Assembly (NCBI GenBank): GCA_903866255.1
Contig: CAIPMW010000058.1
Span: 1 to 64,000, forward strand
Source of the DNA: an uncultured Chlorobiaceae bacterium
GTDB lineage: Bacteria > Bacteroidota > Chlorobiia > Chlorobiales > Chlorobiaceae
Direction of reading: 5' to 3'
Length of the DNA: 64,000 nt
A program made the position numbers and the translations under genes. Each line of letters starts with the position of its first letter. The stretch's first letter is position 1. Below the pieces are notes generated by a model. That model saw nothing but the letters and a program-made list of their open reading frames with translations, searched no databases and had not been told where the DNA came from. Of this stretch, positions 3,620 through 45,309 are shown in pieces.

Positions 3620-3693
3620 AATTTTGTTTCAGTTAAGAGTGTTGTTGTTGTTCATACATAAAAAAAAAGCGCGAATGATCACCTTATGCCATG

Positions 3694-3754
3694 AACATAA
3701 CAGCTCTTCCCTTAAGAGGTTCTTAACAAAAACTTAAAAAATTCTTAAAATTTT
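3694..3754 (-). promoter_or_regulatory. Four-repeat TTAAG box with -10 (box A)
   Basis: Read on the minus strand, TTTAAG, TTTAAG, GTTAAG and CTTAAG occur with five-base spacers, an exact 11-bp period (plus-strand units at 3711, 3722, 3733 and 3744). A TATGTT hexamer at 3699-3694 begins 17 nt after the start of the fourth unit. The FISUMP start codon is 75 bases further on. YTTAAK-N5-YTTAAK is the known PmrA/BasR half-site pattern, so an OmpR-family response regulator is inferred. Confidence 0.75.
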
Positions 3755-3762
3755 CAGGAGGG

Positions 3763-3803
3763 CCTTTTTTTCTGCCACCAGGCAACGATGGCAGAAAAAA
3801 AGG
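3763..3803. repeat. Long inverted repeat beside box A
   Basis: CCTTTTTTTCTGCCA (3763-3777) and TGGCAGAAAAAAAGG (3789-3803) form a perfect 15-bp stem with an 11-base loop, between the 3' end of ccsA and box A. The T tract precedes the GC core and the A tract follows it on both strands, so it is not a classical intrinsic terminator. Confidence 0.7.
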
Positions 3804-3810
3804 GGGTAGG

Positions 3811-4608
3811 TCAGCTTTGCGTGTAGGTGTGGACGCTGTTCCGGGCGGAAGGGAGATAGTTCACTCCAAACCAGCAGACCAGAAGCACCAGAAATGAGAG
3901 AGCGAGATACCACTGCAACTTCCCCCGGTCAATCTTGTACCGGCAGGCATGAAGATAGCCAAGATAGGCCAGCCACGACAGGAAAGCCCATGTCTCCTTT
4001 GGATCCCATGTCCAGTAATGGCCCCAGGCCTCTTTTGCCCACAAGGCCCCGAATATCAAGCCGAATGTGAGGAGCACAAAACCCAGAAGCGCCAGATAGT
4101 GCGAAACCGATTCACCATTGACATTCCCTTTGGATCTCAATTGAAGGGAGATATTGTGCAATGCCGTTACTGAGGAGGCCGCCAGCATCACGTAGCCAAC
4201 CAGATAGACGACGACATGCGGAATAAACCATGGACTCTGCAAGGCTGGCATCAGGGTTTTGTCGAACACCTCAGGATGAAGCATGTTGATCACCAGAAAA
4301 AATGCTGCCAGGCCCATGCAGTAGAATTTGAGCCAGGCTATCTTCCAGCGATACTCAACCAGAAACCCGACAAGGGGTATAAGCGCCGCATACCAGAGCC
4401 GTGTTTCGCCCAGTGTTCTGAGCGGCGGACGGTCGAGGAGCGACCAGTATGAGGCGATAAAGCCAACCATAACCAGAGAGCCTGCAAAGGAGAGCATCAA
4501 TGCAGGGAGTTTGAGTATGGGAGTGCGTCGCACAAAAAGAGAAAGGAGCGACCCTGTTGCCCAGCAGCCTATAGCCGCTTTGGCTGCCGTGTTAAAATCA
4601 ACGTTCAT
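3811..4608 (-). CDS. ccsA: Cytochrome c biogenesis protein CcsA (system II)
   Basis: CcsA/ResC is the integral membrane haem-handling half of system II cytochrome c synthetase; it carries haem to the periplasmic face for attachment to CxxCH apocytochromes. The 265-residue product has about eight membrane segments, the tryptophan-rich haem motif WGHYWTWDPKETW (195-207) and conserved candidate haem-ligand histidines near 131, 220 and 260. It follows resB and overlaps it by 4 bases. The c-type cytochromes at 6209 and 6790 are plausible clients. Confidence 0.92.
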   Translation of the reverse strand: MNVDFNTAAKAAIGCWATGSLLSLFVRRTPILKLPALMLSFAGSLVMVGFIASYWSLLDRPPLRTLGETRLWYAALIPLVGFLVEYRWKIAWLKFYCMGLAAFFLVINMLHPEVFDKTLMPALQSPWFIPHVVVYLVGYVMLAASSVTALHNISLQLRSKGNVNGESVSHYLALLGFVLLTFGLIFGALWAKEAWGHYWTWDPKETWAFLSWLAYLGYLHACRYKIDRGKLQWYLALSFLVLLVCWFGVNYLPSARNSVHTYTQS

Positions 4609-5846
4609 GATGCCACCTCTTTTTGTTTAATGCCATTCCAGAAAAACAGCACATTGCCTGCCATAATCATAAAAAATCCAAGATAGACTGCCGGTAACCA
4701 GGGATCGCGGATAACCTCTATAAGGCTATACTTCGACCATCTTCCAGCTTCGTCATCGTATCCCATCTGATAGAGCTTCCATCCCATAACGTTTATCGGA
4801 TGGTTAACTTCAAGCGTCGCTGTTACCAGTTGACCGCTTTCACCACGCACTGTTACGTCAGAACGAAATGCTTTCGGTGTACCAGGTGCCATGACCAGCA
4901 AGAGTTCTCCAATTGGTGCTGCCCAGGGTTTCATCATTGGGCTAATGGAGCTGATCCATGCATACGTCGGCACTGCATTTGTGTTGGTGATTCTGACTTT
5001 GGCAAAAGCGACTCCTGCTGTACGGTCTGCCGGTTCGGGGATACCGTTTTTTCCGGGAAGCGCATTGGGTAAAAAGTCGAGCACCTCAACAGCAACCCCC
5101 TTCCAGGAGGCCTTAACCCCCTTGTGGACGAGAGTCGTTGTTTTTGCCAGCTCCTGAAGGGCATGGTTTTTCCTTGGATCATACAAAAAGAGCTGGGGAG
5201 GATACTCCTCAAGCGAGAAATCATGCAGAAAAACCGAAAAAGGGAGCTGTTGCTCACTGTCGCTCTCCCTCGAATAGGCCATGTTACTCTCCCCGCCCTC
5301 ATCAACCTTCATGATGAGGCGCTGAATGTCAGGGCTTCCGAACACCCCACAGGAGAGCGCTATCCAGAACCCTGCATGAAACAGGATAAACTGAATATTT
5401 TTCATGCTGAAGGGAACAAGTCGCCAGGAGAGAGAGAGCCCCAGGTTAGCAAGAAACAGTAAAACCGTAAGGGCAAACGGCCAGCTCGAAAAAATCTGGT
5501 TTACACCAAGCAATGCCGGCAGAGAACCTGGCGCAACCTCCCCTTGTGGAATAACCCCTCCTATCAAGGAGAGAAGCGCAAGAGCAACAATCAGGGAAAG
5601 TCCCAGAGGAATTCCTCCAAGCCACTGAACGAGACGATTCTCCCTGAATCCAAGGCCAACGCCCAGGGTGAGAACGGCGAACAGTACCAGAATAACGGCA
5701 TTGAGCGGCAGGTGGAGCGGAGGAACACCCTGCCCTGACGTTGCATACTGAAGAATAAAACCGGCAACAACAATAAGTGCTGCACCAAGAGAAGATTCCC
5801 TGAACTCCCAGGGAGTCTGAAACCAGCGACGCCGGACAACCACCAT
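4605..5846 (-). CDS. resB: Cytochrome c biogenesis protein ResB/Ccs1
   Basis: ResB binds apocytochrome and works with CcsA in system II haem ligation. Starting at MVVVRRRWFQTPWEF the product has 413 residues: N-terminal transmembrane pairs, a large periplasmic domain (about residues 190-370, with a cytochrome-b-biogenesis-like NHPINVMGWKLYQMGYD segment) and a C-terminal membrane helix. The frame stays open to 6002, but the extra residues are mostly hydrophobic. A promoter-like TTGTCT-16-TATATT at 5940-5913 would start transcripts near 5906, ruling out the most upstream starts. The ATG at 5885 remains possible. Confidence 0.87.
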   Translation of the reverse strand: MVVVRRRWFQTPWEFRESSLGAALIVVAGFILQYATSGQGVPPLHLPLNAVILVLFAVLTLGVGLGFRENRLVQWLGGIPLGLSLIVALALLSLIGGVIPQGEVAPGSLPALLGVNQIFSSWPFALTVLLFLANLGLSLSWRLVPFSMKNIQFILFHAGFWIALSCGVFGSPDIQRLIMKVDEGGESNMAYSRESDSEQQLPFSVFLHDFSLEEYPPQLFLYDPRKNHALQELAKTTTLVHKGVKASWKGVAVEVLDFLPNALPGKNGIPEPADRTAGVAFAKVRITNTNAVPTYAWISSISPMMKPWAAPIGELLLVMAPGTPKAFRSDVTVRGESGQLVTATLEVNHPINVMGWKLYQMGYDDEAGRWSKYSLIEVIRDPWLPAVYLGFFMIMAGNVLFFWNGIKQKEVAS

Positions 5847-5912
5847 AACGATATACCTGAAATAAGCTTGATGAAAAAAAACCATCCGCATAAGCGGGTT
5901 ACACACATCCAA

Positions 5913-5940
5913 AATATAACACCACAACAATATGAGACAA
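5913..5940 (-). promoter_or_regulatory. Candidate promoter of resB-ccsA
   Basis: On the minus strand TTGTCT (5940-5935), a 16-base spacer and TATATT (5918-5913) form a reasonable sigma-70-like promoter 60-70 bases upstream of the preferred resB start. The rest of the 5847-6208 gap contains the promoter and dyad described next and no gene. Confidence 0.45.
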
Positions 5941-6022
5941 ATGATATTGTTCAGCCAGAATATTTTCTCTTTAAACACGGTAACCAGCAAAAAAATATGC
6001 ATTCTTTGAACCGCGAATTAAA

Positions 6023-6058
6023 TTAACGATTGTTAATTTAATTGTTATTGACTATAAT
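6023..6058 (+). promoter_or_regulatory. Promoter with TTAAC-N4-GTTAA dyad ahead of cytochrome c
   Basis: TTGTTA (6030-6035), a 17-base spacer and a perfect TATAAT (6053-6058) form a strong promoter. A dyad, AATTAAC-gatt-GTTAATT (6021-6038), overlaps the -35. Its core TTAAC-N4-GTTAA has the 14-bp symmetry typical of CRP/FNR-family sites. The family assignment is inferred from shape only. Confidence 0.55.
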
Positions 6059-6208
6059 GTCCTATATTAAGCCTATTGCACGGTGAACTTCGACTGCTGC
6101 CTGTAGTTCTCGCAATTCCGGACAGAACATTGTTATTGGCCCATCCGGGGTGTTAGCGAGCCTTGACAAACAATTGTACAATCATTTGCCAACAATAACG
6201 GAGACATT

Positions 6209-6562
6209 ATGAAACGTTTCGCGCAACTTTGTATGCTGATTTTTGCATTCTTTTGCACAACAGATGCCCTTCATGCCGAAAGCATTGATAAGGCGGAACT
6301 GGCAAAAAAATACAATCTTGCTGAAGGAAAAGAGATTTATGAGGGCACCTGTTCGGGATGTCATGCGAGCGGTTTGTTAGCAGCGCCAAAATTTTGTGAC
6401 ATAGCGGCATGGAAGCCGCGGATGGCAAATGGTATGGCGACACTGATCAAGCACACCGTTGAAGGTTTTAATGCAATGCCTTCCAAGGGCGGAATAGAGA
6501 CACTCTCAATACAACAATCTTCCAATGCAATTGCCTATATGGTAGACCAATGTCTGTTTTGA
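6209..6562 (+). CDS. Periplasmic monohaem cytochrome c (c5-like)
   Basis: The 117-residue protein has a signal peptide (cleavage after LHA, about residue 23), one haem-binding motif CSGCH (48-52) and a likely axial Met in NAMPSKGG (Met90), the arrangement of small class I / c5-type cytochromes. Two extra cysteines (C63 and C115) could form a disulfide. It is a soluble or membrane-associated electron carrier of the periplasm. An AACGGAG ribosome-binding site precedes the ATG. It lies 227 bases upstream of the porin-cytochrome fusion and may accept electrons from it; that link is inference from position. Confidence 0.85.
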   Translation: MKRFAQLCMLIFAFFCTTDALHAESIDKAELAKKYNLAEGKEIYEGTCSGCHASGLLAAPKFCDIAAWKPRMANGMATLIKHTVEGFNAMPSKGGIETLSIQQSSNAIAYMVDQCLF

Positions 6563-6582
6563 TGGCAAGAGTTAACAAAATC

Positions 6583-6610
6583 TTGACACATTGTTTGGAA
6601 AATTGATAAT
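6583..6610 (+). promoter_or_regulatory. Promoter of the porin-cytochrome gene
   Basis: TTGACA (6583-6588), a 16-base spacer and GATAAT (6605-6610) match the sigma-70 consensus at 11 of 12 positions. The resulting leader to 6790 would be about 170 nt. This suggests separate transcription from the upstream cytochrome gene. Confidence 0.6.
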
Positions 6611-6789
6611 AAAAGCAGAAATTGAGCCATTGTATCTTGGTCTATTTGTCTTCTGATTTATAGAGATAAGACATCCGACATTCTTATTTCAAAACTGAAA
6701 GCTGTCGCCTTGGTCTCGTGGTTGGAATGACAAGTTTTTGAATTTTTAACAAAGCCCATTAAATTTCATTAAAAAAACAGGAGCGGAGC

Positions 6790-8160
6790 ATGAAGAAAAC
6801 TAAAATTGCAGCAATTCTTTCACTCGGTATGGTTCCCGCCATGTTCTGGAGTTCCGAAAGTCAGGCAATACCATCGTGGGCAAGGAAATACAATGTATCC
6901 TGTTACATGTGCCACTCAGGATTTCCGCAGAGAAATGCCGTAGGTGAGGCCTTCCAGAACAACGGCTTTCGTTTTCCAGACGCAACCGAAGCTGCATTAA
7001 CCAAGCAGAAGAATATCAAGATTGGAAATGACGAATGGGATAAGCTGGCTCCAAATGCACCATTCCAGGGTTCATTCCCACAGTTTGATGCGCTGAGCAT
7101 GACGCTGGGAGGCAGGCTTATTAACTATACATCGCAGCAGTCATTAAAAGTAGGGGGGACGACAGCAAGGACTCTTGCCGGGAAGCAATTTAACTGGGCC
7201 GCGCCAAACAGTGTTTCCCTTTTTTATGGCGGCTCGCTCGGTGACGATATTACTTTCTTTGGTCAGTTAGGAGGATTTAATGGTTACCTCACTGCAGCCC
7301 CCAGTACAGCGTCCCCAACAAGCCAACTTACAAGCAATGCAAGGGTTGTTTATAGGTTGGCCCACGGATTTAAATTTGCGATGGGTACCCAGTTCAGTGC
7401 TATTGGGTGGAATGGAACAGGTGCTGGTGGAGTCGTAAACGTCAGCGGTTTACTTCCTTCACCGAGCAACTATGCTGAGCTCCAGCTCACCAGAGGTGAA
7501 ACTGGTGGATACTCTGTTGTTGCAGGTAGCAGTGTTGACTTGCCTCCAGGCCAAATAACAAATGCAGCTACTGCAGCCCTGTCAACTGCCGGGAATATTG
7601 ATAATCACGTCTATCTGCGGGCAAAGGTGAAGCTTGTGGGCGCAGGTATGCTCAGTGGAGCAAATGGGACTTTAGGCAACTCTTATAATGGCCTTGATAA
7701 TCAGGTAACCCTTGGTTTTGGTCTCTCTTCAGCAAAAAACAAGGCTATATTTGGTGGTGCCTATGCCGGTGAAACTCTTGTTTATGGCGCTGATATACAG
7801 GCAGTCCATAACAACTCGCTCGTTGGTGTCGCTGTCAGCAGGGACAAGGATTTTGGCTTGAACAACGTCAAGGCTGAAGCTGGTTACTTTGTCTATCCCT
7901 GGCTTTTTGCGAGGGTATCATATACTGACATAGCAAATACAGGCTACACAGTAGCAGCTCCTACTGGCACCGCAGTTGGTAGACATCGTCCAACTGTTGT
8001 TCCTTCTTTAGTTGCTTGGGTCGCGCCAAATGTATCAGTTACAGCGACCTACACCAGGTATACAAAGGAATGGAGGGAAAATGTTGCGGCTGGAGCAGAG
8101 TCTCTTAACAATATTTCTGACCAGAACGCTTTCAACGTGTCTCTGTTAGCAGGCTTCTGA
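6790..8160 (+). CDS. Outer-membrane porin-cytochrome fusion, Cyc2-like
   Basis: The 456-residue product has a signal peptide (cleavage after SQA, about residue 26) followed at once by IPSWARKYNVSCYMCH, a single haem site at 38-42, then PQRNAVGEAFQNNGF. The rest is glycine-rich, with alternating polar and hydrophobic strands, ending in an aromatic residue (LLAGF), as expected for an outer-membrane beta barrel. A short N-terminal haem segment fused to a barrel of about 400 residues is the architecture of Cyc2, the iron oxidase of neutrophilic Fe(II) oxidisers and some Chlorobium. An ACAGGAG ribosome-binding site precedes the ATG. Its promoter and terminator make it monocistronic. True Cyc2 versus a related porin-cytochrome cannot be settled by eye. 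Confidence 0.75.
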   Translation: MKKTKIAAILSLGMVPAMFWSSESQAIPSWARKYNVSCYMCHSGFPQRNAVGEAFQNNGFRFPDATEAALTKQKNIKIGNDEWDKLAPNAPFQGSFPQFDALSMTLGGRLINYTSQQSLKVGGTTARTLAGKQFNWAAPNSVSLFYGGSLGDDITFFGQLGGFNGYLTAAPSTASPTSQLTSNARVVYRLAHGFKFAMGTQFSAIGWNGTGAGGVVNVSGLLPSPSNYAELQLTRGETGGYSVVAGSSVDLPPGQITNAATAALSTAGNIDNHVYLRAKVKLVGAGMLSGANGTLGNSYNGLDNQVTLGFGLSSAKNKAIFGGAYAGETLVYGADIQAVHNNSLVGVAVSRDKDFGLNNVKAEAGYFVYPWLFARVSYTDIANTGYTVAAPTGTAVGRHRPTVVPSLVAWVAPNVSVTATYTRYTKEWRENVAAGAESLNNISDQNAFNVSLLAGF

Positions 8161-8202
8161 TGATATCTTGACACTGCTTTCAAATGCGAAAGCAATTTCT
8201 TC

Positions 8203-8240
8203 AAAAGACATGTCCAGCACCAGTGGACATGTCTTTTTTT
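8203..8240. terminator. Intrinsic terminator after porin-cytochrome gene
   Basis: AAAAGACATGTCCA and TGGACATGTCTTTT form a perfect 14-bp stem with a 7-base loop, followed by further T residues (seven T in all). The A-rich 5' arm could also serve the opposite strand. Confidence 0.92.
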
Positions 8241-8338
8241 ATTATGCAGACTCCGTATCGCCTTTTGCAACACAGCCCTCCCGTTCTCTCAATACTCTGC
8301 GGCATTATTCAGTCTGACACAGGGGATTTTCCTGCATT

Positions 8339-8394
8339 TTTAAGCAAATTTTAAGCTGCGGCTAATTGTCATTTAAGTTCAAATATGCTATCCT
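8339..8394 (+). promoter_or_regulatory. Four-repeat TTAAG box with -10 (box B)
   Basis: TTTAAG (8339), TTTAAG (8350), GCTAAT (8361) and TTTAAG (8372) are spaced exactly 11 bp apart. TATCCT at 8389-8394 starts 17 nt after the start of the fourth unit. Geometry and orientation are identical to boxes A and C. It drives tlpA-DUF4266-DUF3570. Confidence 0.8.
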
Positions 8395-8536
8395 TGTAAG
8401 CAGGAGAGATTTAACCGCATGTTTTAGTGACGTTGTGCGTCTGCATCGCTGATTTGAAGAGTGATGCAGGGTGACGCTTGGCCTGTGTATCCTGTTTTTA
8501 TCACCCAGTTTTCCTTTAACCAAAATCGATACGACA

Positions 8537-9052
8537 ATGGTACGCTTTCAATGTAAGAAGTTAAGAACCCTCCTGCTTGCCTCGCTGCTCTGCGTTGGCT
8601 TCAGTGGCACGTCGCACGCTCTGGAGGTTGGCACCAAGGCACCGGATTTTGAGCTGCCCGGCGCGCAGGGCCCCGTAAAGCTGTCGACTACTACTGGTTC
8701 GTTAATCTACGTCGATTTTTGGGCATCCTGGTGCGGACCGTGCAAGCAGTCGTTTCCCTGGATGAACGCCATGCAGGAAAAATACAAAGCTCAGGGGCTG
8801 AAAATCATTGGTGTCAATCTTGATGCCAAATCTGAAGATGCCAAAAAGTTTTTGGAACAGAATCCGGCTAAATTTACCGTTGCCTTTGATCCAAAAGGGG
8901 TTTTACCAAAAAGTTACGGGGTAAGGGGTATGCCAACCAGTTTTCTCATTGGCAAAAATGGCAAAATTATTTCCCAGCATTTAGGGTTTAACGCTGCTGA
9001 CAGCGAAAAACTTGAAAAAGAGATCAAAGCGGCACTGGAGGCAAACAAATGA
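8537..9052 (+). CDS. TlpA/ResA-family periplasmic thioredoxin
   Basis: The 171-residue product has a signal peptide (MVRFQCKKLR, hydrophobic core, cleavage near SHA) and a thioredoxin fold of the TlpA/AhpC-TSA type: GTKAPDFELPG, the active site WASWCGPCK and the cis-Pro loop GVRGMPTSFLI. It would be a periplasmic thiol-disulfide reductant or oxidant. The GTG at 8471 adds an unlikely leader; the ATG at 8537 gives a clean signal sequence. It is first in an operon, sharing an ATGA overlap with the DUF4266 gene. DsbD (13888) is the obvious source of electrons for it. Confidence 0.88.
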   Translation: MVRFQCKKLRTLLLASLLCVGFSGTSHALEVGTKAPDFELPGAQGPVKLSTTTGSLIYVDFWASWCGPCKQSFPWMNAMQEKYKAQGLKIIGVNLDAKSEDAKKFLEQNPAKFTVAFDPKGVLPKSYGVRGMPTSFLIGKNGKIISQHLGFNAADSEKLEKEIKAALEANK

Positions 9053-9288
9053 ACATGACTGTTATTCAGAAAATATTTTACGCCCTGTTAGTTGTCATCA
9101 CCCTCGGCTTGTCGGGCTGCTCAATTGGTGAGACGGTTCAACCGTGGGACAAGGCAATCCTTGCCAGACCGGAAATGACCTTTGAGGGCGACCCTCTCGA
9201 CACCAAGTATGTTGAGCACATCTACAGCAGCAAAGAGGCTGCCTCTGGTGGCGCCGGAGTTGGCGGCGGCGGATGCGGATGCAATTAA
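9049..9288 (+). CDS. DUF4266 lipoprotein with Gly/Cys-rich tail
   Basis: The 79-residue protein has a lipoprotein signal with lipobox LSGC (Cys24), then SIGETVQPWDKAILARPEM, which I recognise as the DUF4266 core, and a C-terminal SGGAGVGGGGCGCN with Cys76 and Cys78. Its start codon overlaps the tlpA stop by 4 bases, so translation is coupled. From memory, DUF4266 proteins usually neighbour a thioredoxin, a DUF3570 protein and ApbE, and all of these are present here. The function is unknown. The conserved CGC tail could bind metal, carry a modification or be a TlpA redox substrate; this is inference. Confidence 0.82.
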   Translation: MNMTVIQKIFYALLVVITLGLSGCSIGETVQPWDKAILARPEMTFEGDPLDTKYVEHIYSSKEAASGGAGVGGGGCGCN

Positions 9289-9316
9289 CTGTAATTATAA
9301 TTTTCAGGATACTCTT

Positions 9317-10483
9317 ATGAAATCGATCCCGATAAAAAAAACACATCTTGTAGGTGCTACCCTTTTTGCCGCTGCCTTGGCGCTGCCATCGCCTCACCCT
9401 GCCTTTGCTGAAGCTGCTCCTGAAAAAGGGATTGTTGCCTTTAAATATCTTAATTACGAGGATAAAGACACCAACCCTGCTCAGGAGAGGATTGAGGTCA
9501 ACGCCTTTACTGTCATGGCCATGGCACCAATTGCCGGTAAATGGTCGATTAGCACAACTTATACCAATGACTCTGTTTCCGGTGCGTCACCCAGTCACTA
9601 CAATGCAGTTTCCGGTGCATCCATAAAAGAGCATCGGCAGGCGGTTGACCTGGGTCTTACCCGTTACTTCCAGAAAGGAACCATAACGCTTGGCAGCAGC
9701 TATTCCAGCGAAAACGACTACATATCCCGCAGCTATTCTGCGCAAGGTAGCCTTTCTACCGAGGACAAGAATACTACCTTTACGCTTGGTGGCAGCTATA
9801 CAACGGATACTATTAACCCAACTACCGACAAAACCTCCTTTTATGACAAGCAGAGTTTTGCCTTGCTTGCGGGTATAACAAAAATCTTGACCAAGACGGA
9901 TATTGTTCAGCTCAACCTTGGTTTCTCAAGGGGATGGGGTTATTTTAATGACCCCTACAAGATGTTGGATGCTCGGCCAGAGAGACGTGAGAGCGAAACG
10001 ATCATGACGCGCTGGAACCATCACTTTGACGGAACCGACGGTACAAGCAGGATCTCCTATCGCTATTACACCGACACATTCGGCATTCATGCCCATACTT
10101 TTGGCCTTGAGTATGTTCAACCTGTCGCCAGTGACTGGACGATAACGCCGTCAGTAAGGTTCTCATCCCAGACCGCAGCAGACTTTTACTACCCAGTTGG
10201 ACCAGCAGACCCGGCAGATCCTGCTGTACAGCAAGTGTCTCAAGAGGCTCAAGACGCAAAAACAATGGGTTTACCTGTTTCATTAGATCAGCGTCTTTCT
10301 GCTTTTGGAGCACTTACACTTGGTATAAAGGTTGAAAAAAGGATTGCCAAAGAGTGGGTAGTTGATGCAAAGTATGAGATCTATGAGCAGAGAGCTGGCT
10401 GGAGCTTGACTGGCGGCGGAGATAAGGGGTTAGCCCCGTTCAGTGCTACTTTCTTTCAATTGGGAGTGTCACGACAGTTTTAA
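9317..10483 (+). CDS. DUF3570 outer-membrane beta-barrel-like protein
   Basis: The 388-residue product has a signal peptide (cleavage near AFAEA, about residue 32) and many amphipathic strands ending in LGVSRQF, a typical outer-membrane barrel C terminus, as in DUF3570 proteins. An AGGA ribosome-binding site precedes the ATG. The frame is open upstream to 9182 only through the DUF4266 gene. Residues 85-93 read DSVSGASPS and 96-104 NAVSGASIK; the first matches the D-x-x-S/T-G-A-S/T pattern that ApbE enzymes flavinylate. With apbE in the next operon, this protein may carry covalent FMN, but that is unproven. It is the last gene of the box B operon. Confidence 0.83.
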   Translation: MKSIPIKKTHLVGATLFAAALALPSPHPAFAEAAPEKGIVAFKYLNYEDKDTNPAQERIEVNAFTVMAMAPIAGKWSISTTYTNDSVSGASPSHYNAVSGASIKEHRQAVDLGLTRYFQKGTITLGSSYSSENDYISRSYSAQGSLSTEDKNTTFTLGGSYTTDTINPTTDKTSFYDKQSFALLAGITKILTKTDIVQLNLGFSRGWGYFNDPYKMLDARPERRESETIMTRWNHHFDGTDGTSRISYRYYTDTFGIHAHTFGLEYVQPVASDWTITPSVRFSSQTAADFYYPVGPADPADPAVQQVSQEAQDAKTMGLPVSLDQRLSAFGALTLGIKVEKRIAKEWVVDAKYEIYEQRAGWSLTGGGDKGLAPFSATFFQLGVSRQF

Positions 10484-10504
10484 CCCTAATGGGGAGTAAG
10501 CATT

Positions 10505-10539
10505 CCGACAACTGTCTTTTCATTGTAGATGGCTGTCGG
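10505..10539 (+). terminator. Possible weak terminator after DUF3570 gene
   Basis: CCGACA and TGTCGG form a 6-bp stem with a long loop, followed by a TTCGCTTCGCTTTT stretch. There is no clean T tract, so transcription may continue through to the RTX gene. Confidence 0.35.
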
Positions 10540-10762
10540 ATTCGCTTCGCTTTTAAAATGACAAATCTCCCCTTTACTGCCTGCCATTCAGTGCGTTAAG
10601 TTGATAAATCAGATAACATGCGAGCTTACATGTACAGGCGCATTGCAACTGTAGAGTGCGGCACTGTGGTTAAAATTAGTCAGGATCTGACTGAAATTCG
10701 ATGGGCCTCGTGGTGTCGTGATTTAGTTTTGTGACTGCCTGACAGAATAGATGCAGTAGCTT

Positions 10763-10818
10763 TTTAAGTGAAATTTAAGCGGCGATTAATATGGCTTAAA
10801 GAGTCAAAGACGTATCAT
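10763..10818 (+). promoter_or_regulatory. Four-repeat TTAAG box with -10 (box C)
   Basis: TTTAAG (10763), TTTAAG (10774), ATTAAT (10785) and TTAAAG (10796) have an 11-bp period. TATCAT at 10813-10818 starts 17 nt after the start of the fourth unit. The first two units, spacer lengths and -10 position are superimposable on box B. It drives the RTX gene and probably apbE-dsbD. Confidence 0.8.
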
Positions 10819-10857
10819 TGACCTACAATTTTACTTTTCATAACGACAGGGAAAAAT

Positions 10858-12942
10858 ATGGCTACTTATACCAAGACGGGTACTGCCGCTAATGATACCT
10901 TTGCGATTGGCAGTATAACCAATTTCAATGCCCCGAGTTCTGGGTCTATTTTTAATATTGATGGTGGAGCCGGAAGTGATATATTACAATTAAATAACAC
11001 TGGTAGCCTAAGTTATAATTCCAGATTCCCATCTACTGGATTTGTTATTAATCCGGTTAACGCATTGGGAGTGATTGTCGTCTCTGGCGCAAGTTCTGGA
11101 GGGAAAAGTTATACCTTCAATCTGACCAGTGTCGAGACTCTTGTCTTCTCTGACAGGACGGTCACGTTGACCTATGCTGACACCACACCACCTGTATTTG
11201 CTTCGGCAACGGTCAATGGCTCATCGCTTGTCATGACCTATACCGAGGCAAACACCCTTGATGCAGCAAACGCTCCTGCGGTTACTGCCTTTACCGTCTC
11301 CGGCACATCGTCCGGCGCTCACACGGTCAGCGCTGTTGCCGTTAATGCTGCCGCGAAAACAGTTACACTCACGCTTGCCACAGCCGTTGCCAATGGTGAA
11401 ACGGTTACGGTTGCCTACACCGATCCGACAGCAGGCAATGACGTAAAGGCAATCCAGGATGCGGCAGGTAACGATGCGGTTACGTTAGCGGCTACGGCAG
11501 TTACCAACAACACTCCTGTGCCAACAAACCATGCTCCAACTGGAGCAGTTACCATAACCGGCACAGCAACGCAGGGCCAGACACTTACCGAAAGCCATAC
11601 CACACTTGCGGATGCTGACGGAATTGTTGGAACCGTCAGTATACAGTGGTATGCGGGCGGTACGGCTATCTCTGGCGCTACGGCAGCCAACTATACCCTT
11701 ACTTCAAATGAGGTGAACAAGAGCATCAAGGTTGTGGCAAGCTACACTGACGGGCATGGAACTCCAGAAAGTGTAAGCAGCGATACAGTTCTTTTTGGCG
11801 CCACACTGGATCCAGTTACTACCGTTCAGAATGTGGCCGCACTGCATACTGAACTTGATGGTCATGTCCCGGCCACAGGTTATGCCGATGTCCAGGCTGG
11901 AATGGATGACTATTACAAGACGCTCACAACTCTTCACTCTGCAACAACAGATGTGGCGGTACGCACTATCAGCGTTACCTCGCAAGGATCACTCGATGTG
12001 AACCCCTCTGCTCATGAAGCGCTTGTTATCGATACTACCGGGTTGACCCCTGGTGCCCGACTGGATCTGAACAACGTAGACTTTGCCATTATCATCGCCG
12101 ACGAAACCCGTACCACTACAATACGTGGCGGAGAAGGCAATAACATTGTTTACGCAGGCGCTGGCCAGCAGGATATTCTCCTTGGTGCTGGTGATGATAT
12201 CCTGCACGGTGGTGCTGGCAATGACACTATTGGCTCGCTGGGTGGCACTGACCAGCTTTTTGGTGACGCTGGCAATGATATCCTTAGTGGTGGCGATGAC
12301 AATGACACGCTCTGGGGTGGTGCAGGCGATGACACCCTCTGGGGCGGAAACGGGATCGATACTGCTGCCTTCAGTGGAAATTTTGCAAATTACACCATCA
12401 AATTTAATGATACTGATTCAAGCTATCAGATAAAAGATAACGTCGGTACCGATGGCACAGATGTTGTCCACGACGTGGAAGTTTTCCAGTTTGCCGATTT
12501 TCCTGTGGGAAAAATTGACGATAATCTGGATCCCTCATTGAACTCAGTCAATCTTGGTAATCCAGGAGTCACTGGCGTTGCTGTTGGCACAACTATTGTG
12601 TTCACCTTCAGTGAAGACATTGCGTTGAAAGTTGTTGAAAAGGCAACCGACATTGTTGTTCATGCCGGGTCATCTACCGGAGCACCGGTGGCTGCAAGCA
12701 CGACAGTATCAGGGAACACACTCACCATCGATCCAACCGCCAACCTGTCGAACAGTACCCACTATTATGTTACCCTGGCCAGCGGCAGTATCCATGACCT
12801 GTTTGGCCATAGTAATGCGATTACAACCTACGACTTCACGACTGCCGATCCATACGTGGCTCCTCCGGCAGAAAGCAGCAGCGCCGCCATTGCAATTGCC
12901 GGAATTGGTGGCGTTGGCCTTCTTGCATGGTTGCTACTTTAA
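10858..12942 (+). CDS. RTX/Ig-like repeat surface protein with C-terminal membrane tail
   Basis: The 694-residue protein has no Sec signal peptide. An N-terminal beta-rich part is followed by a SwmB-type repeat (about 105-215, with FTVSGTSSGAHTVSAVAV), an Ig-like domain around WYAGGTAISGATAANYTL, and calcium-binding RTX nonapeptides (GGAGNDTIG, FGDAGNDIL, WGGAGDDTL; about 425-500). A Big_5-type Ig domain (about 560-665) comes next. Residues 673-694 form a hydrophobic glycine-rich helix, AAIAIAGIGGVGLLAWLLL. RTX repeats suggest Ca-dependent folding outside the cell and type I secretion, but the terminal membrane segment is unusual for that route. A GACAGGGA ribosome-binding site precedes the ATG. 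It is the first gene after box C and ends 14 bases before apbE. Confidence 0.8.
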   Translation: MATYTKTGTAANDTFAIGSITNFNAPSSGSIFNIDGGAGSDILQLNNTGSLSYNSRFPSTGFVINPVNALGVIVVSGASSGGKSYTFNLTSVETLVFSDRTVTLTYADTTPPVFASATVNGSSLVMTYTEANTLDAANAPAVTAFTVSGTSSGAHTVSAVAVNAAAKTVTLTLATAVANGETVTVAYTDPTAGNDVKAIQDAAGNDAVTLAATAVTNNTPVPTNHAPTGAVTITGTATQGQTLTESHTTLADADGIVGTVSIQWYAGGTAISGATAANYTLTSNEVNKSIKVVASYTDGHGTPESVSSDTVLFGATLDPVTTVQNVAALHTELDGHVPATGYADVQAGMDDYYKTLTTLHSATTDVAVRTISVTSQGSLDVNPSAHEALVIDTTGLTPGARLDLNNVDFAIIIADETRTTTIRGGEGNNIVYAGAGQQDILLGAGDDILHGGAGNDTIGSLGGTDQLFGDAGNDILSGGDDNDTLWGGAGDDTLWGGNGIDTAAFSGNFANYTIKFNDTDSSYQIKDNVGTDGTDVVHDVEVFQFADFPVGKIDDNLDPSLNSVNLGNPGVTGVAVGTTIVFTFSEDIALKVVEKATDIVVHAGSSTGAPVAASTTVSGNTLTIDPTANLSNSTHYYVTLASGSIHDLFGHSNAITTYDFTTADPYVAPPAESSSAAIAIAGIGGVGLLAWLLL

Positions 12943-12956
12943 CCGGAAAAAGAGCT

Positions 12957-13850
12957 ATGGAGGTTTATCGCTTTGGCTTTGATGCCATGGGGGGGAGCGG
13001 CGAGGTCGTTATTGCCCTGGAGAATAAAAAGGAGGCGCACTCCATAGCCAGGATGGCTCTCGCAGAGGTGGGGAGAATTGAGTACAAATACTCCCGTTAT
13101 CGCCCGGAGAGCATTGTTTCGAGGATCAATGCGACCGCCGGTTGCGACTTTGTTGACTGTGATGGCGAGACTGCGGCATTTATCCACTATGCTGACACCC
13201 TTTACGACAAGAGTGGCGGACTGTTTGATATAACGTCGGGGGTGTTGCGCCATTCCTGGGATTTCAGCAAGGGCAACCTTCCTGAACCGGCAAAACTCTC
13301 TGAACAGCTCTCTTTTGTGGGATGGCAACGGGTGGAACGACAAGGCAATGCCATTCGCCTGCCTGTTGCCGGAATGGAGATTGATTTTGGAGGATTTGGC
13401 AAAGAGTACGCTGCTGACCGGGCGGCGGAAATCGTGTTCAACAACGGGGTGAAGTATGGTTATGTAAATCTGTCGGGTGACATCAGGGTTGTAGGCCCAA
13501 GGCCTGATGGAGAGCCCTGGGTTATTGGGATTCAGGATCCCCGACACAAAGAGCGCACCATAGCCTCCATTCCTCTCTATACCGGAGCATTGACAACCAG
13601 TGGTGATTATGAACGCTTTTTTGAGGTTGACGGAAAACGATATTGTCACATTATTCACCCCGTTCGAGGCTATCCTGTCACCTTCTGGAGATCGGTAACG
13701 GTTGTTGCCCCCTCAGCCATTACTGCCGGAAGCTGCACAACCATAGCAATGCTGAAAGAGGCTGAGGGGTTGGGTTTTCTTGAACAATCAGGGTTTGGAT
13801 ACCTGGCAGTCGACCAGCTTGGAATCATCTATCACAAAAACAACCAGTAA
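12957..13850 (+). CDS. apbE: ApbE-family FAD:protein FMN transferase
   Basis: ApbE attaches FMN from FAD covalently to a Thr or Ser of target proteins. The 297-residue product shows FDAMGGSGEV at the N terminus (the usual xMGT position), the Mg/FAD-binding stretch IDFGGFGKEYAADRAAE, GYVNLSGDIRVVG and TSGDYERFFEVDGKRYCHI followed by HPVRGYP. Starting at 12957 it has no signal peptide or lipobox, so it is predicted to be cytoplasmic, unlike classical exported ApbE. The alternative ATG at 12927 overlaps the RTX gene and also lacks a signal. DUF3570 (9317) is a candidate substrate; no NQR or RNF subunit is in the window. Confidence 0.9.
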   Translation: MEVYRFGFDAMGGSGEVVIALENKKEAHSIARMALAEVGRIEYKYSRYRPESIVSRINATAGCDFVDCDGETAAFIHYADTLYDKSGGLFDITSGVLRHSWDFSKGNLPEPAKLSEQLSFVGWQRVERQGNAIRLPVAGMEIDFGGFGKEYAADRAAEIVFNNGVKYGYVNLSGDIRVVGPRPDGEPWVIGIQDPRHKERTIASIPLYTGALTTSGDYERFFEVDGKRYCHIIHPVRGYPVTFWRSVTVVAPSAITAGSCTTIAMLKEAEGLGFLEQSGFGYLAVDQLGIIYHKNNQ

Positions 13851-13887
13851 CTCTTGTGTCTACAGAAATTTTTTACCGGAAAACAAC

Positions 13888-15759
13888 ATGAACCACTTCT
13901 CGCTCAAGGGCACAACCACCTTTATTGTCCTGTTTCTGGCGCTCTTTCTCAGGGTAAGCACAGCCTTTGCCGCTGAATTTCTTGATCCAGAACAGGCGTT
14001 CAAAATCAGGGCCGAGCTGAACAGCGCAGGAAAAGTGGCTGTGCATTGGGATATTGCCAAAGGGTACAAACTGTATCGCGACAAGGTGACTGTCGGTATC
14101 GACAAGGGCAAGGCAGAGGTGAAAAGCCCGGTCATGCCGAAAGGAATCATCTTTACGGATCCCACAACAAACGAAAAGATGGAGATCTATCACGATAAAC
14201 TTGATGTAGGGGTCTCTGTTGTCAAGGCTGATGGAGTTTTCACCCTCAGCGTGGGATACCAGGGTTGTGCCGAAGATGGCCTCTGTTATCCACCGATAAC
14301 AAAACTGTTCACGGTTGACCCAGGCAAGCCGGGGGCATTATTGATTGCCAGTGAGGAGGGTGCCGCAACACCCTCGACTGTGGCCACCCAGGCACCTGCG
14401 ACTCCTGCCCCGTCGACACCGATTTCTGCCAGCGCTCCAAAAGAGGTCGCAACAAAGAGTGATCTCTCTATCGTAGCATCCACACTTGCCGGAGGAAGCC
14501 TCTGGAAAGTATCATTTGCGTTTCTTGTCTTCGGGCTGCTCTTGTCGTTTACCCCCTGCGTGCTGCCGATGGTGCCGATTCTCTCCTCCATCATTGTGGG
14601 CGAGGGTAAGGTGACGCGCAGCCGCAGCTTTTTGATGGCACTTGCCTACTGCCTCGGTCTGGCGCTGGTCTACACGGCTCTTGGTGTTGCCGCAGGTCTG
14701 GCGGGTGAAGGACTCTCTGGAGCGCTGCAAAAACCATGGGTACTTATTATGTTTGCGCTATTGCTTGTGCTGCTCTCTCTCTCCATGTTTGATGTCTATC
14801 AGTTGCAGATGCCCGCTTCACTGCAAAGCAAGCTTGGCAAGGCATCGGGCGGATTAAAAAGAGGACGTTTTGTGGGTGTGTTTTTTATGGGCGCACTGTC
14901 GGCCCTTATTGTCGGGCCCTGTGTTGCCGCCCCGCTTGCAGGCACCCTTGTCTACATCAGCCAGACTCACGACATACTTCTTGGTGGCGTAGCCCTCTTT
15001 TCCATGGCGATGGGAATGAGTGTTCCACTGTTGCTGGTAGGGTTATCCGCTGGCAGCCTTCTTCCTAAAGCTGGCTTATGGATGGTCAGTGTGAAGTATG
15101 TGTTTGGTCTTCTTCTGATCGCTGTTGCAATCTGGATGGTTACTCCTGTTTTGCCAGCCCAGGCTCTCCTGCTTTTGTGGGGCGCTTTTGGCATCCTCTG
15201 CTCGCTTTTCCTTGGCATTTTTGATGCCTCACCAGTAAAAGCCACCATCGCCCAGCGTTTTGGCAAAGCTCTTGGATTTGTGCTCTTTGTGCTCGGCGTG
15301 GTGGAGCTTGTCGGCTCTGCGGCAGGTGGCACCAATGTGCTTGAGCCTCTCTCATCGATACGAAGCGGCTCAATCACCATTGCCGGTGAAGAGAAAACCT
15401 CCAGCTTTACCCGTATCAAAACAGTTGCTGAGCTGGACAAGGCGCTGCTCTCAACCAAAACTCCGGTCATGCTTGATTTCTATGCCGACTGGTGCGTATC
15501 GTGTAAAGAGATGGATAAATTCACCTTTCATGACCCCAGGGTGATGAATCAATTCAAGACGCTGACCTTGCTCCAGGTTGATGTGACAGGCAACACCCCT
15601 GATGATGTTGCCTTGATGAAACGCTTTGGCCTCTTTGGCCCTCCTGGCATCATCTTTTTTGACAGCGCTGGCAAGGAGATAACCGACGGTAAAATTGCAG
15701 GCTTTCTCGAAGCCACCCCTTTTCTGGATCATATCAGCAAATTTGTCACTGGCAAGTAA
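13888..15759 (+). CDS. dsbD: DsbD thiol:disulfide interchange protein
   Basis: DsbD moves electrons from cytoplasmic thioredoxin across the membrane to periplasmic thiol proteins. The 623-residue product has a signal peptide (cleavage near AFAAE), an N-terminal DsbD-alpha domain with the redox pair in CAEDGLCYPP, a Pro/Thr/Ala-rich linker (about 150-190), and an eight-helix domain with FTPCVLPMVPIL and GPCVAAPLAGT, one redox Cys in each half. A C-terminal thioredoxin domain has DWCVSCK. All six catalytic cysteines are present. A GGA ribosome-binding site precedes the ATG at 13888. Position at the end of the box C operon makes TlpA (8537) a likely client. Confidence 0.95.
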   Translation: MNHFSLKGTTTFIVLFLALFLRVSTAFAAEFLDPEQAFKIRAELNSAGKVAVHWDIAKGYKLYRDKVTVGIDKGKAEVKSPVMPKGIIFTDPTTNEKMEIYHDKLDVGVSVVKADGVFTLSVGYQGCAEDGLCYPPITKLFTVDPGKPGALLIASEEGAATPSTVATQAPATPAPSTPISASAPKEVATKSDLSIVASTLAGGSLWKVSFAFLVFGLLLSFTPCVLPMVPILSSIIVGEGKVTRSRSFLMALAYCLGLALVYTALGVAAGLAGEGLSGALQKPWVLIMFALLLVLLSLSMFDVYQLQMPASLQSKLGKASGGLKRGRFVGVFFMGALSALIVGPCVAAPLAGTLVYISQTHDILLGGVALFSMAMGMSVPLLLVGLSAGSLLPKAGLWMVSVKYVFGLLLIAVAIWMVTPVLPAQALLLLWGAFGILCSLFLGIFDASPVKATIAQRFGKALGFVLFVLGVVELVGSAAGGTNVLEPLSSIRSGSITIAGEEKTSSFTRIKTVAELDKALLSTKTPVMLDFYADWCVSCKEMDKFTFHDPRVMNQFKTLTLLQVDVTGNTPDDVALMKRFGLFGPPGIIFFDSAGKEITDGKIAGFLEATPFLDHISKFVTGK

Positions 15760-15787
15760 TCAAACGGCTCGGTGGTAACCTTCTAAC

Positions 15788-15820
15788 AAAAAAGCCTGCT
15801 CTCTTCAAGCAGGCTTTTTT
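15788..15820. terminator. Bidirectional intrinsic terminator
   Basis: AAAAAAGCCTGCT and AGCAGGCTTTTTT form a 13-bp stem with a 7-base loop between dsbD (+) and the convergent rlpA (-). It has A and T tracts on both sides, so it can serve both genes. Confidence 0.95.
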
Positions 15821-15863
15821 GTGCCCGTTCCTTTATGCTGACGGGTGCGTCTCACATCAACAT

Positions 15864-16331
15864 TCAACCGGATATAAATGCCGCCGGGAGCAACTTGACT
15901 GCCTCCAGCTTTACCTGTACAATACCTGTCTGCATAATGCCAATCTTTTTTGCAGCGCCAGCCGATAAATCAATGATCCGGCCCTTCACAAACGGTCCGC
16001 GATCATTGATACGCACAACAACATCTTTTCCGTTACTCAGATTGGTAACTTTTACCCACGTACCAAAAGGAAGTGAAGGATGGGCAGCGGTCAATTGATA
16101 GGTGTTAAAGGTCTCGCCGTTCGCGGTCTTGCGTCCGTGAAACTGACCGGCGTAAAATGATGCAGTACCTTCGGTTGCCGCAGCCTGCTTTTTTGTGGTG
16201 CGAACCCCGGTATCGGCACCCTCCGCTGTGCTATAAAATGGATTACATGCGCCGAACTGTATCGCTGAAAAACCAGCGACTGTCAGTACAGCAAGAAGTG
16301 AGAAGTTGATAAAATGTTTTTCATGTCTCAT
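15864..16331 (-). CDS. RlpA-like double-psi beta-barrel protein
   Basis: The 155-residue exported protein has an N-terminal hydrophobic signal (possible lipobox near FGAC, Cys29) and a single RlpA domain: [35 protein letters not shown] and the catalytic-type stretch [18 protein letters not shown]. RlpA proteins are septal lytic transglycosylases acting on denuded glycan strands. It lacks a SPOR domain, so septal targeting is not evident. A second copy, similar only in this domain, lies at 29846. Confidence 0.88.
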
Positions 16332-16801
16332 ACGCTCATGGTTTAAGCTGGTTACTCTTCAGGCTCCCGATGGTAAAACAGAGAACCAATAATGAATAAA
16401 AATCAAAATGCTATTCAATCGCGTTACCACGCAAATATAAAGAAAAAATGTTATAACAACCAATCGAACCCCTTTTTCCTGCCAGAAACCTCTCAATATC
16501 GGACTTAACACGCACCCAATACAATAAAAAATACGCAAGACTAATTACCTTGAGCCACACTTATTGACGCAGAATGAAGGCTATCATTCTATATTGTGAA
16601 TAATATTCGCCTCTTTCAAGAGGGTATGAATATCACAGAAATTATGTCCCCTCATATTCAACCGGTTCACCCCCTTGCACAATAACAGCACAATTCGCTG
16701 TTTATTTGATTTACAACATATTGTCTATATTGTGCCCTTGAATCAGTGGTTTGGCGGATGCTGACCATTGTGCAAGGCTTTTTTCATTTCGCTCAATTAA
16801 C
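16332..16801. other. Long intergenic region upstream of kup
   Basis: This AT-rich gap of 470 bases lies between divergent rlpA and kup. It contains TCTATATTGTG twice (16588-16598 and 16724-16734), an inverted CACAATA (16677-16683) and a dyad AACAGC-N7-GCTGTT (16684-16702). These look like regulatory sites but I cannot assign a regulator. No gene is apparent. Confidence 0.4.
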
Positions 16802-18703
16802 ATGTCAACACTATCGAAAGAGTCGGATGCCAGCGGAAATGGCATAAAACGGCTTGCCGGCCTCTCTCTTGCTGCTCTCGGTGTTGTCTTTGGGGATATA
16901 GGCACCAGTCCGCTCTATGCCGTTCGAGAGTGTTTTCATGGAGAGTATGGCATTCCCATCACACACGACAATATTCTTGGCGTTCTCTCCCTCCTGGTCT
17001 GGTCCCTTCTTTTGATTGTCAGCCTGAAATATCTCACCTTTATCATGAAAGCTGATAATGACGGCGAGGGGGGAATTCTTGCCCTCACGGCGCTCATTAT
17101 CACCCAAAGCCGGAAAATTGGGTATGAACGAGGATTCCTGGTCGTTATTGGTCTGTTCGGTGCGGCTCTGCTCTATGGCGACGGCATGATTACTCCTGCC
17201 ATATCAGTACTCAGCGCTGTTGAGGGCGTTCAGATTATTGCTCCGGCATTCAAGGATCTTGTCATACCTGTCACAATCATTGTTCTTGTCGGCCTGTTCT
17301 ATTTCCAGCATAATGGAACGGCAAGGGTTGGCGCCCTTTTCGGCCCCATTCTCTTTGTCTGGTTTGTCGTCATCGGTTCACTTGGACTTGTTGAAATCAT
17401 AAGGTTTCCGCAGATTTTGCAGGCCATACTGCCATGGTACGGAATCTCTTTTCTCCTCAATAACCATCTCCAGGGTTTTATGGTGCTGGGCGCGGTTTTT
17501 CTCTCTGTTACCGGAGCTGAAGCGCTCTATGCTGATATGGGCCATTTTGGCAGACGCCCAATAAGGCTGACGTGGGTGTTGCTGGTTTTGCCTGCATTGC
17601 TCCTGAACTATTTTGGCCAGGGAGCCCTCCTGCTCGCTTTTCCTGAACAGTCGCACCATCCCTTTTATGGTCTGGTCCCTTCGTGGGCCATGATCCCTAT
17701 GGTAATACTCTCGACATCAGCAACCATTATCGCTTCACAGGCGCTGATAACCGGCGTTTTTTCATTGACCCAGCAGGCCATTCAACTTGGTTATCTCCCA
17801 CGGCTGACCATAACCCACACCTCTGCCAAACATATCGGACAGATTTATGTCCCTGCGGCAAATTGGGCATTAATGATTTCCACGATAACGCTTGTGGCTG
17901 GTTTTGGCTCCTCAAGCAAGCTTGCTGCCGCTTATGGAGTCGCGGTAACAGCAACCATGCTTATCTCAACCATTCTCTTCTATTATGTCGCCCGTGATCT
18001 CTGGAAATGGAACAGAATCGCTCTCAATCTGCTCATCGGCTTTTTTGCTGTTATTGATATCTCCTTTTTTGGGGCAAGTATGAGCAAGCTGTTTCAGGGC
18101 GCATGGTTTCCCCTGGCGATCGGCATGGCCATTTTTACCCTTATGCTGACCTGGAAGCAGGGCCGGAGCCTTCTGTTGAAACAGTTGCAGGATCGTACAC
18201 TGACAACTGAAGAGTTTATCCAGAGCCTCGCCTTGCAGCAGCCACACCGGGTCAATGGCCAGGCGGTCTATCTGACAGCCAATCCGGATGTTGTGCCCGT
18301 TGCCATGCTCCACAACCTGCGCCATAACAAAATTATGCACTCGGAGGTTGCCCTGTTTCATTTCAGCACGGAAAGGGTGCCAAGAGTTCCAAACAGTCGT
18401 AAAGTAGAGGTTGTTAAACTTGGCGACGGATTTTTCAAGGTTATTGCCCGGTATGGCTTTCTTGAATATCCCAATATCCGGCAGGTGATTGCGCTGGCCA
18501 ACCATCAAGGGTTGCATTTTAAACCAGAATCGATCAGCTTTTTCCTCAGCCGGGAAAAAATTGTTACCGGCCTGAAGTCGAAGATGATTTTGTGGCGCAA
18601 AAAACTTTTTGCCTTGATGGCTCGAAATGCCCTCAGCGCAACAGCCTACTATAACCTGCCATCAGGCCAGGTGATTGAGATAGGCGTTCTTGTGCAACTG
18701 TAA
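16802..18703 (+). CDS. kup: Kup-family potassium uptake transporter
   Basis: Kup is a low-to-medium affinity K+/H+ symporter of the inner membrane. The 633-residue product has the family N terminus LSLAALGVVFGDIGTSPLYAVRE, about twelve membrane segments (including LLYGDGMITPAISVLSAVEG and TGAEALYADMGHFG) and a cytosolic C-terminal part from about residue 450 (HNKIMHSEVALFHFSTERVPRV). The ATG at 16802 is chosen because the family begins shortly before this motif; the start at 16751 adds 17 unlikely residues. No clear Shine-Dalgarno sequence is visible. Confidence 0.95.
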   Translation: MSTLSKESDASGNGIKRLAGLSLAALGVVFGDIGTSPLYAVRECFHGEYGIPITHDNILGVLSLLVWSLLLIVSLKYLTFIMKADNDGEGGILALTALIITQSRKIGYERGFLVVIGLFGAALLYGDGMITPAISVLSAVEGVQIIAPAFKDLVIPVTIIVLVGLFYFQHNGTARVGALFGPILFVWFVVIGSLGLVEIIRFPQILQAILPWYGISFLLNNHLQGFMVLGAVFLSVTGAEALYADMGHFGRRPIRLTWVLLVLPALLLNYFGQGALLLAFPEQSHHPFYGLVPSWAMIPMVILSTSATIIASQALITGVFSLTQQAIQLGYLPRLTITHTSAKHIGQIYVPAANWALMISTITLVAGFGSSSKLAAAYGVAVTATMLISTILFYYVARDLWKWNRIALNLLIGFFAVIDISFFGASMSKLFQGAWFPLAIGMAIFTLMLTWKQGRSLLLKQLQDRTLTTEEFIQSLALQQPHRVNGQAVYLTANPDVVPVAMLHNLRHNKIMHSEVALFHFSTERVPRVPNSRKVEVVKLGDGFFKVIARYGFLEYPNIRQVIALANHQGLHFKPESISFFLSREKIVTGLKSKMILWRKKLFALMARNALSATAYYNLPSGQVIEIGVLVQL

Positions 18704-42668: not shown

Positions 42669-43961
42669 TTAATTTCCATTATTTTTCCGGCGAAGATATG
42701 CCGGAGTGTCTGATAAACCTTTCTGAATAATATTTCCCTGCTCTCCCCTTTCCCCTGCCATCGGTATGTTATGATCACCCTCATGACCACCATTACTTCT
42801 TATTCCCACTTCATGGGGATCATGAATCGACAACTGCCTGCGGATATAGGCTGGGATCCGCAAATCCTCCTCTTTCCCTTCCGGGTAGTGAGAAAACGGC
42901 TTTCGTCCTGTAGCCGGCATCTGTCCTGTCCTCATCCCAGGCACTGCGGTAACAGGACGTCGTGCGGTCTGACTCTTTCCTTCATCCTGATCCTTTCGTC
43001 TGAAACCGGTAACGATAACGGTCACCCTGATCTCACCCGATACCTGTGGCTCATCAACATAACCGTTTATAATTTTTGCTTCGCTCCCTACCTGCTCCTC
43101 GATATAGTTCATGGCGTCCGACATGTCACGCATGGTAACCTGGCCAGTAATATTGACCAGAACCCCTTTTGCCCCTTTTATCGATACACCCTCAAGAAGA
43201 GGACTGTTTATCGCGTCGGATGAGGCCTTGAGGGCACGGCGTTCACCTGCCGCTGCGGCAGAACCCATAACTGCATCGCCAGCCCCCGACATAATGCTGC
43301 GAACATCAGCAAAGTCAACATTGACATGTCCGTGACGGGTAATAATATCGGCAATGCCTTTCGCCGCCCTGTAGAGAACATCGTTAGCCATATTAAATGC
43401 TTCAGTGGCACTTACCCCCTCTTCAGCAATACTGAGAATCTTCTCATTCTCGACCAGAATCAGGGTGTCGATATACTTCCGAAGTTCGGCTATTCCTCCG
43501 TCTGCAATCTTCGACTTAACCTGCCCCTCAAAGTTGAATGGCCTCGTCACAACACCGATGGTGAGAATGCCCATATTGCGGGCAATCGAGGCAATCACCG
43601 GCGCGGCACCAGTACCTGTGCCCTTGCCCATACCAGCAGCAATAAAGACAAGGTCAGCCCCGCGAAGCTGAGCCGCAATAATCTCGCGGTCATCTTCGGC
43701 CGCCTGGCGACCTTTTGCCGGATCTGCTCCAGCACCAAGGCCGCTTGTTGCTTTTTTCCCAATCTGTACCCTGAGAGGAGCTTTCGAATTCAGAAGAGCC
43801 TGACGATCCGTATTAAAAACTATATATTCAACGCCACTTATTTTCCGGTCGATCATATTGTTTACGGCATTGCCACCACAGCCGCCAACGCCAACAATTC
43901 TTATCGTCACCCCCTTGCCCTGGTCATTGTCAAAAAGACCAGGATCCAGCTCAAATGCCAT
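42669..43961 (-). CDS. ftsZ: Cell division protein FtsZ
   Basis: FtsZ is the tubulin-like GTPase forming the division ring. The 430-residue product has [15 protein letters not shown], the GTP-binding GGGTGTG-equivalent [14 protein letters not shown], synergy-loop [20 protein letters not shown], a variable linker (about 325-405) and a C-terminal conserved peptide [13 protein letters not shown] for FtsA and other partners. It is the last gene of the dcw cluster, after ftsA. Confidence 0.97.
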
Positions 43962-44003
43962 CGCTCATCTCCCCTTTATAACACGCTTGTTCCCTCTCGT
44001 TCA

Positions 44004-45305: not shown

Positions 45306-45309
45306 TGTT

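Follow-up and report, generated by a model that had tools for sequence, protein, structure and literature searches.

The predicted fused cytochrome-porin encoded at 6790-8160 and the periplasmic monohaem cytochrome encoded at 6209-6562 probably form a two-gene electron-uptake module of Chlorobium. The window (the whole 64,000-nucleotide stretch analysed here) lies on contig C58 of a Chlorobium MAG of 2.80 Mb, 99% complete and labelled G000 below; among named relatives Chlorobium sp. L442-64 comes closest, its counterpart of the 6790-8160 product being 97% identical. How would such a module work? A small reductant from outside the cell, either dissolved Fe(II) or humics or quinones in reduced form, would enter the pore of an outer-membrane barrel, where the single-haem periplasmic plug of the 6790-8160 product would accept its electrons and hand them to the c5-like cytochrome (6209-6562), which would pass them to the photosynthetic chain. 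We infer both the direction of flow and the identity of the donor, for which Fe(II) is one candidate. Expression would be controlled through a palindrome upstream and is probably derepressed when sulfide is scarce.

The fused cytochrome-porin and its neighbourhood

The features that bear on this proposal are, in order along the window:
3811-4608, minus strand: CcsA/CcsB-type cytochrome c assembly protein, system II (Pfam Cytochrom_C_asm, 4e-32; NCBIfam TIGR03144, 1e-38, below the family cut-off)
4605-5864, minus strand: ResB, system II cytochrome c maturation (Pfam ResB, 8e-18)
6018-6041, no strand: perfect palindrome with 10-bp arms, TTAAATTAAC-GATT-GTTAATTTAA, a candidate operator (one match in the window against 0.02 expected)
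6030-6058, plus strand: predicted sigma-70-like promoter for the cytochrome, TTGTTA-17-TATAAT (consensus scan, 10/12)
6209-6562, plus strand: periplasmic monohaem c5-like cytochrome c (Pfam Cytochrome_CBB3, E=7e-12; Cytochrom_C)
6583-6610, plus strand: predicted sigma-70-like promoter before the porin gene, TTGACA-16-GATAAT (consensus scan, 11/12)
6790-8160, plus strand: RKY-type (clade A) Cyc2-like protein, a predicted fused cytochrome-porin (motif, hhalign, clade A SH-aLRT 100)
8203-8237, plus strand: intrinsic terminator-like hairpin at the end of the c5-Cyc2 unit (14-bp stem and a T run)
8537-9052, plus strand: TlpA/ResA-like thioredoxin (NCBIfam ResA subfamily, 1e-30, below the family cut-off; Pfam AhpC-TSA/Redoxin)
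9049-9288, plus strand: DUF4266 small lipoprotein-like protein with a C-terminal CxC (Pfam PF14086, 4e-22)
9317-10483, plus strand: DUF3570 protein carrying the SGAS flavinylation motif twice, at residues 88 and 99 (Pfam PF12094, 2e-64)
12927-13850, plus strand: ApbE, FAD:protein FMN transferase (Pfam PF02424, 1e-69)
13888-15759, plus strand: DsbD, transmembrane thiol electron carrier (NCBIfam PRK00293, 7e-169; start codon chosen by eye)

A sequence-only reading had proposed a Cyc2-like layout, with one haem motif after the signal peptide, and this was confirmed: the 6790-8160 product has 456 residues, a signal peptide recognised by eye, a single CXXCH at residue 38 with no second haem motif, and a C-terminal Phe. 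The reading frames of both the porin and the cytochrome were borne out at their coordinates. The string around the haem motif reads AIPSWARKY-NVS-CYMCH-SGF-PQR, and the haem domain offers no invariant distal His or Met candidate except M40, inside CXMCH. Searches of Pfam and NCBIfam with the product matched no model, and sequence searches of the PDB returned nothing meaningful. The long remainder after the haem domain is barrel-like, and the 16-stranded, haem-plugged barrel of the Cyc2 family would be compatible with its numerous amphipathic beta windows, a crude and weak measure. AlphaFold, run on a two-row alignment (the window protein and a 97% identical homologue, L001) too shallow to use, gave a pLDDT of 27. 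The gene is not a chance reading frame, because 48 of the 61 Chlorobium genomes (types A, B and RQT together) preserve the frame and the haem domain in a homologue of much the same length. Clade A copies that are fragmented or frame-broken occur on contig C227 of G085 and at L045 (G005, C51), which suggests gene decay or assembly breaks.

The periplasmic monohaem c5-like cytochrome that the same reading had placed before the porin gene is there as well (117 residues, a signal peptide and one CXXCH at residue 48). It is 52-59% identical to 12 of 15 cytochromes found beside RQT-type Cyc2, another Chlorobium type, where such a cytochrome lies nearly always just upstream. These 12 of the 15 tested form a joint clade (98/97) with the window cytochrome and the other clade A partners of its group; two distinct porins are thus served by a single type of partner. 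Cytochromes that lie downstream of other clade A genes fall outside this clade. Two extra Cys occur in the cytochrome alignment: 16 rows have the two together, 11 have none and no row has just one, and a pair gained and lost jointly behaves as expected of a disulfide. At L032 of G023, tandem c5-like cytochromes (7745-8035 and 8461-8781), both without the extra Cys pair, precede a clade A gene, and this genome carries a separate RQT-type Cyc2 unit as well.

Upstream, ResB and CcsA are divergent from 6209-8160, in agreement with the earlier description of system II maturation genes. Of the 61 Chlorobium genomes 55 have ResB, which in many of them adjoins an A- or B-type Cyc2-like gene. Four related genomes share with the window the order ResB, c5-like cytochrome, clade A gene, (TlpA-DUF4266), DUF3570, in which DUF4266 was read in the window alone and TlpA in the window and G003; nine other genomes have a clade A gene in the corresponding position but lack the cytochrome there. 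DUF3570 also follows RQT-type Cyc2 in G003, G015, G027 and G017. One long locus (L060 of G003, 3688-18235) runs from ResB and a clade B gene through a Rieske/cytochrome b and multihaem cluster to a c5-like cytochrome with RQT-type Cyc2, TlpA and DUF3570.

Place among the Cyc2 homologues of Chlorobium

Is the window protein a Cyc2? Homologues of the family fall into several types among the 61 genomes. Clade A, to which the window protein belongs, occurs in 26 and clade B in 21 of them; a third, clade C, is more distant. In each of the three the haem motif is preceded by FARKY or WARKY, or by a form with one letter changed, and followed by PxR or, in rare cases, AxR. The RQT type, found in 21 of the 61 and absent from the window genome, has mostly ARQT and CxxCHFQRxPxL, and so fits the published Cyc2 signature, AXPXFAR[Q/K][T/Y] with PXL (PMC8406198). 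The window protein agrees with much of this description: its length exceeds the family minimum of at least 365 residues, it has a signal peptide and a single N-terminal CXXCH, and AIPSWARKY fits every position of the signature except for W in place of F. A strict PXFAR screen as in PMC8406198 would exclude it. PXL, which lies four residues after CXXCH and was seen in all RQT-type Chlorobium rows examined, is missing, and the window protein has PQR three residues after the motif.

Profile comparison supports homology with Cyc2 proteins. With hhalign, the window type matched RQT-type Cyc2 at E=7e-12 over residues 1-167 (no more than the haem domain and the first strands), and clade A matched proteobacterial Cyc2-like proteins at E=8e-11 over 103 columns; the RQT type matched the latter, plasmid-borne proteins better than clade A did (E=3e-21, 206 columns). 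Identity between clade A and the RQT type is only about 17-21%. In a tree that takes the RQT type as a proxy for Cluster 1, the named Cyc2 of C. ferrooxidans, Mariprofundus and Gallionella not being among its rows, and in which the proteobacterial anchors are remote proteins from a plasmid tblastn (the only kind that search returned), the RQT type and the proteobacterial rows lie on one side of a branch with support 99 and clades A, B and C on the other. Clade A itself has an SH-aLRT of 100, and forcing it into a single clade with the RQT type was rejected (AU p=1.3e-7); a tree of the N-terminal part only was unresolved.

From its motif and homology, the RQT type probably corresponds to the Cluster 1 Cyc2 of photoferrotrophs, and this tree places the window protein in a separate Chlorobium RKY clade, outside the group linked to iron oxidation. 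The earlier claim of a true Cyc2 thus holds in part: by motif and profile the protein is a member of the Cyc2 family in the broad sense, and its separation from the RQT and proteobacterial set, the missing PXL and the F-to-W change tell against the narrower identity. With the Cluster 1 proteins of neutrophilic iron oxidisers (PMC7029218, PMC8406198) it shares the signal peptide, one CXXCH, the AxPx[F/W]ARKY signature, a barrel-like C-terminal part, a length above 400 residues and a partner periplasmic cytochrome; it differs in having RKY rather than RQT, W for F, and PxR three residues after CXXCH where Cluster 1 has PXL four after, and in lying outside the RQT-type Chlorobium and proteobacterial Cyc2-like set. 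Most likely, judging from these motifs and profiles, the window protein works like Cyc2, yet it should not be filed in Cluster 1.

Cyc2 homologues in Chlorobium have already been published. The parts of these reports available to us describe three homologues in each Trout Bog population, one of them highly transcribed (PMC12285243), and homologues in 40% of Chlorobium mOTUs (PMC8125076); the window protein belongs to this pool, and those parts report no split into RKY and RQT types, no shared partner cytochrome and no palindrome. What is added here is the split, the partner sharing and the sulfur-linked palindrome, of which the last two look new; a limited literature search found no report of the palindrome.

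A palindrome and a probable link to sulfur

The palindrome has its core, TTAACGATTGTTAA, at 6023-6036 (pattern TTAAC-N4-GTTAA), and the -35 element of the predicted cytochrome promoter sits within it. The core is conserved in G029 and G031, and in G031 one outer pair is altered on both sides (pairing judged by eye). With at most one mismatch, the palindrome lies upstream of 3/5 c5-clade A units, 3/6 other ResB-linked clade A genes, 9/14 clade B genes and 7/16 RQT-type units, with none found at eight unlinked clade A genes or five clade C genes; roughly half of the Cyc2 units inspected lack it, those of G083 and G023 included. Sites are concentrated before these units, with 27 in 42 kb upstream of them compared with 11 in 669 kb of other sequence; the reversed-pattern control gave 8 and 27 (Fisher p=4e-5). 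Across the 61 genomes there are 126 copies of TTAACRATYGTTAA and 8 of its reversed control. The two other places in G000 (at most one mismatch) are alone not above the control count, and the case for the palindrome therefore rests on the genus-wide count.

What does the palindrome mark? Of 33 site loci read, 23 stand in front of genes of sulfur assimilation: metY in 16 cases, usually with a DUF4395 gene in between, a metB-like gene in 3, siroheme sulfite reductase in 2, cysK in 1 and a sulfate-binding protein gene in 1. Three more loci are c5-Cyc2 units and four are FadL-type porins. In four genomes (L101, L103, L104 and L115, near position 1501) the palindrome lies between 64 and 97 bp ahead of genes for FadL/OmpP1-type outer-membrane proteins. 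The natural reading of these gene neighbours is that the palindrome marks a sulfur-assimilation regulon, and it would act as an operator coupling expression to sulfur status. At ResB-linked loci it could act on ResB instead of, or besides, the cytochrome.

The genomes give a second link to sulfur, in counts that ignore phylogeny, include several tests on one table and draw on some incomplete MAGs. All 21 dsrA-lacking Chlorobium genomes among the 61 carry type A, B or RQT, and none of the 13 genomes without any of these types lacks dsrA (p=0.002). Against the same 13, genomes with clade A only more often lack dsrA (6/14 vs 0/13, p=0.016) and more often have an assimilatory-type sulfite reductase (10/14 vs 2/13, p=0.006). 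The pattern is plainest in G012, a 97% complete genome with clade A alone, a sulfite reductase and no dsrA match above the cut-off. These counts fit the report that photoferrotrophic Chlorobi assimilate sulfate (PMC5498476).

The window organism has a different profile. Its genome has dsrA above the cut-off, so it probably oxidises sulfide; an assimilatory-type sulfite reductase was not found in this genome. With dsrA and no RQT-type Cyc2 it has the look of a sulfur-oxidising green sulfur bacterium, and for the same two reasons the earlier suggestion of a photoferrotroph is not supported. Uptake of electrons from outside, suggested along with it, is plausible; because dsrA is present, it would supplement sulfide oxidation and would not be obligatory. 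The rest of the window includes an ordinary cell-wall and division cluster (42669-57454: Mur ligases, a penicillin-binding protein, FtsZ).

Competing explanations and consequences

Could the pair simply oxidise Fe(II) for a photoferrotroph, with a function no different from that of the Cyc2 in C. ferrooxidans and Mariprofundus? Layout and kind of partner cytochrome are the same, and G012 manages without dsrA while having only the window's type. The separate clade and motif departures stand against this, as do the dsrA and the lack of RQT-type Cyc2 in the window genome, and the literature, as far as it was accessible to us, yielded no functional test of an RKY-type protein; we regard this explanation as unlikely, if still the most serious of the rivals. 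The single-haem architecture argues against a PioAB/MtoAB system (decahaem cytochrome plus MtrB/PioB porin); TIGR03509 (MtrB/PioB) had no match in the 61 genomes, and control genomes also gave none.

A rival of low probability turns the path outward, the porin and the DsbD-TlpA-DUF4266-DUF3570-ApbE set exporting reductant, for example in Fe(III) reduction for iron uptake. The set at 8537-15759 is indeed complete and, with its two SGAS motifs in DUF3570, corresponds to the published DsbD-type flavinylation system (PMC8238504), in which DUF3570 of C. luteolum was shown to be flavinylated; it differs in following directly after a Cyc2-type unit and in including a gene (10858-12942) for a large secreted protein of RTX/Ig-like type. 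DUF3570 also follows ResB-linked clade A genes at most loci. However, the terminator-like hairpin and separate predicted promoters divide the c5-Cyc2 unit from the flavinylation unit, clade A genes also occur away from DUF3570, and DUF3570 is multicopy elsewhere. ResB, CcsA, TlpA and DsbD may alternatively cooperate in cytochrome c maturation. Quite improbable is a haem-plugged porin serving as sensor or redox gate for nutrient entry, with the sulfur link reflecting transport and no catabolic conduit: a candidate operator common to a sulfate-binding protein gene and FadL-type porins would suit it, and the adjoining dedicated periplasmic monohaem cytochrome and the association with dsrA loss would not.

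The electron-uptake module thus remains the reading we prefer. Its more ambitious form, which we put forward tentatively and consider rather doubtful as a whole, is that a second, diverged Cyc2 lineage (RKY) can act as a stand-alone inlet, with a partner family common to the RQT type and a sulfur-assimilation operator, so that sulfur shortage would turn the cell to outside electrons. The arrangement suggests an electron inlet tied to sulfur status, with outside electrons used once sulfide runs out. Cyc2 presence serves as a marker of photoferrotrophy in Chlorobium; if many matches belong to a different lineage, for which another donor is possible, this marker would over-call iron oxidation. 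The palindrome in turn offers a testable idea of when green sulfur bacteria switch on extracellular electron uptake.
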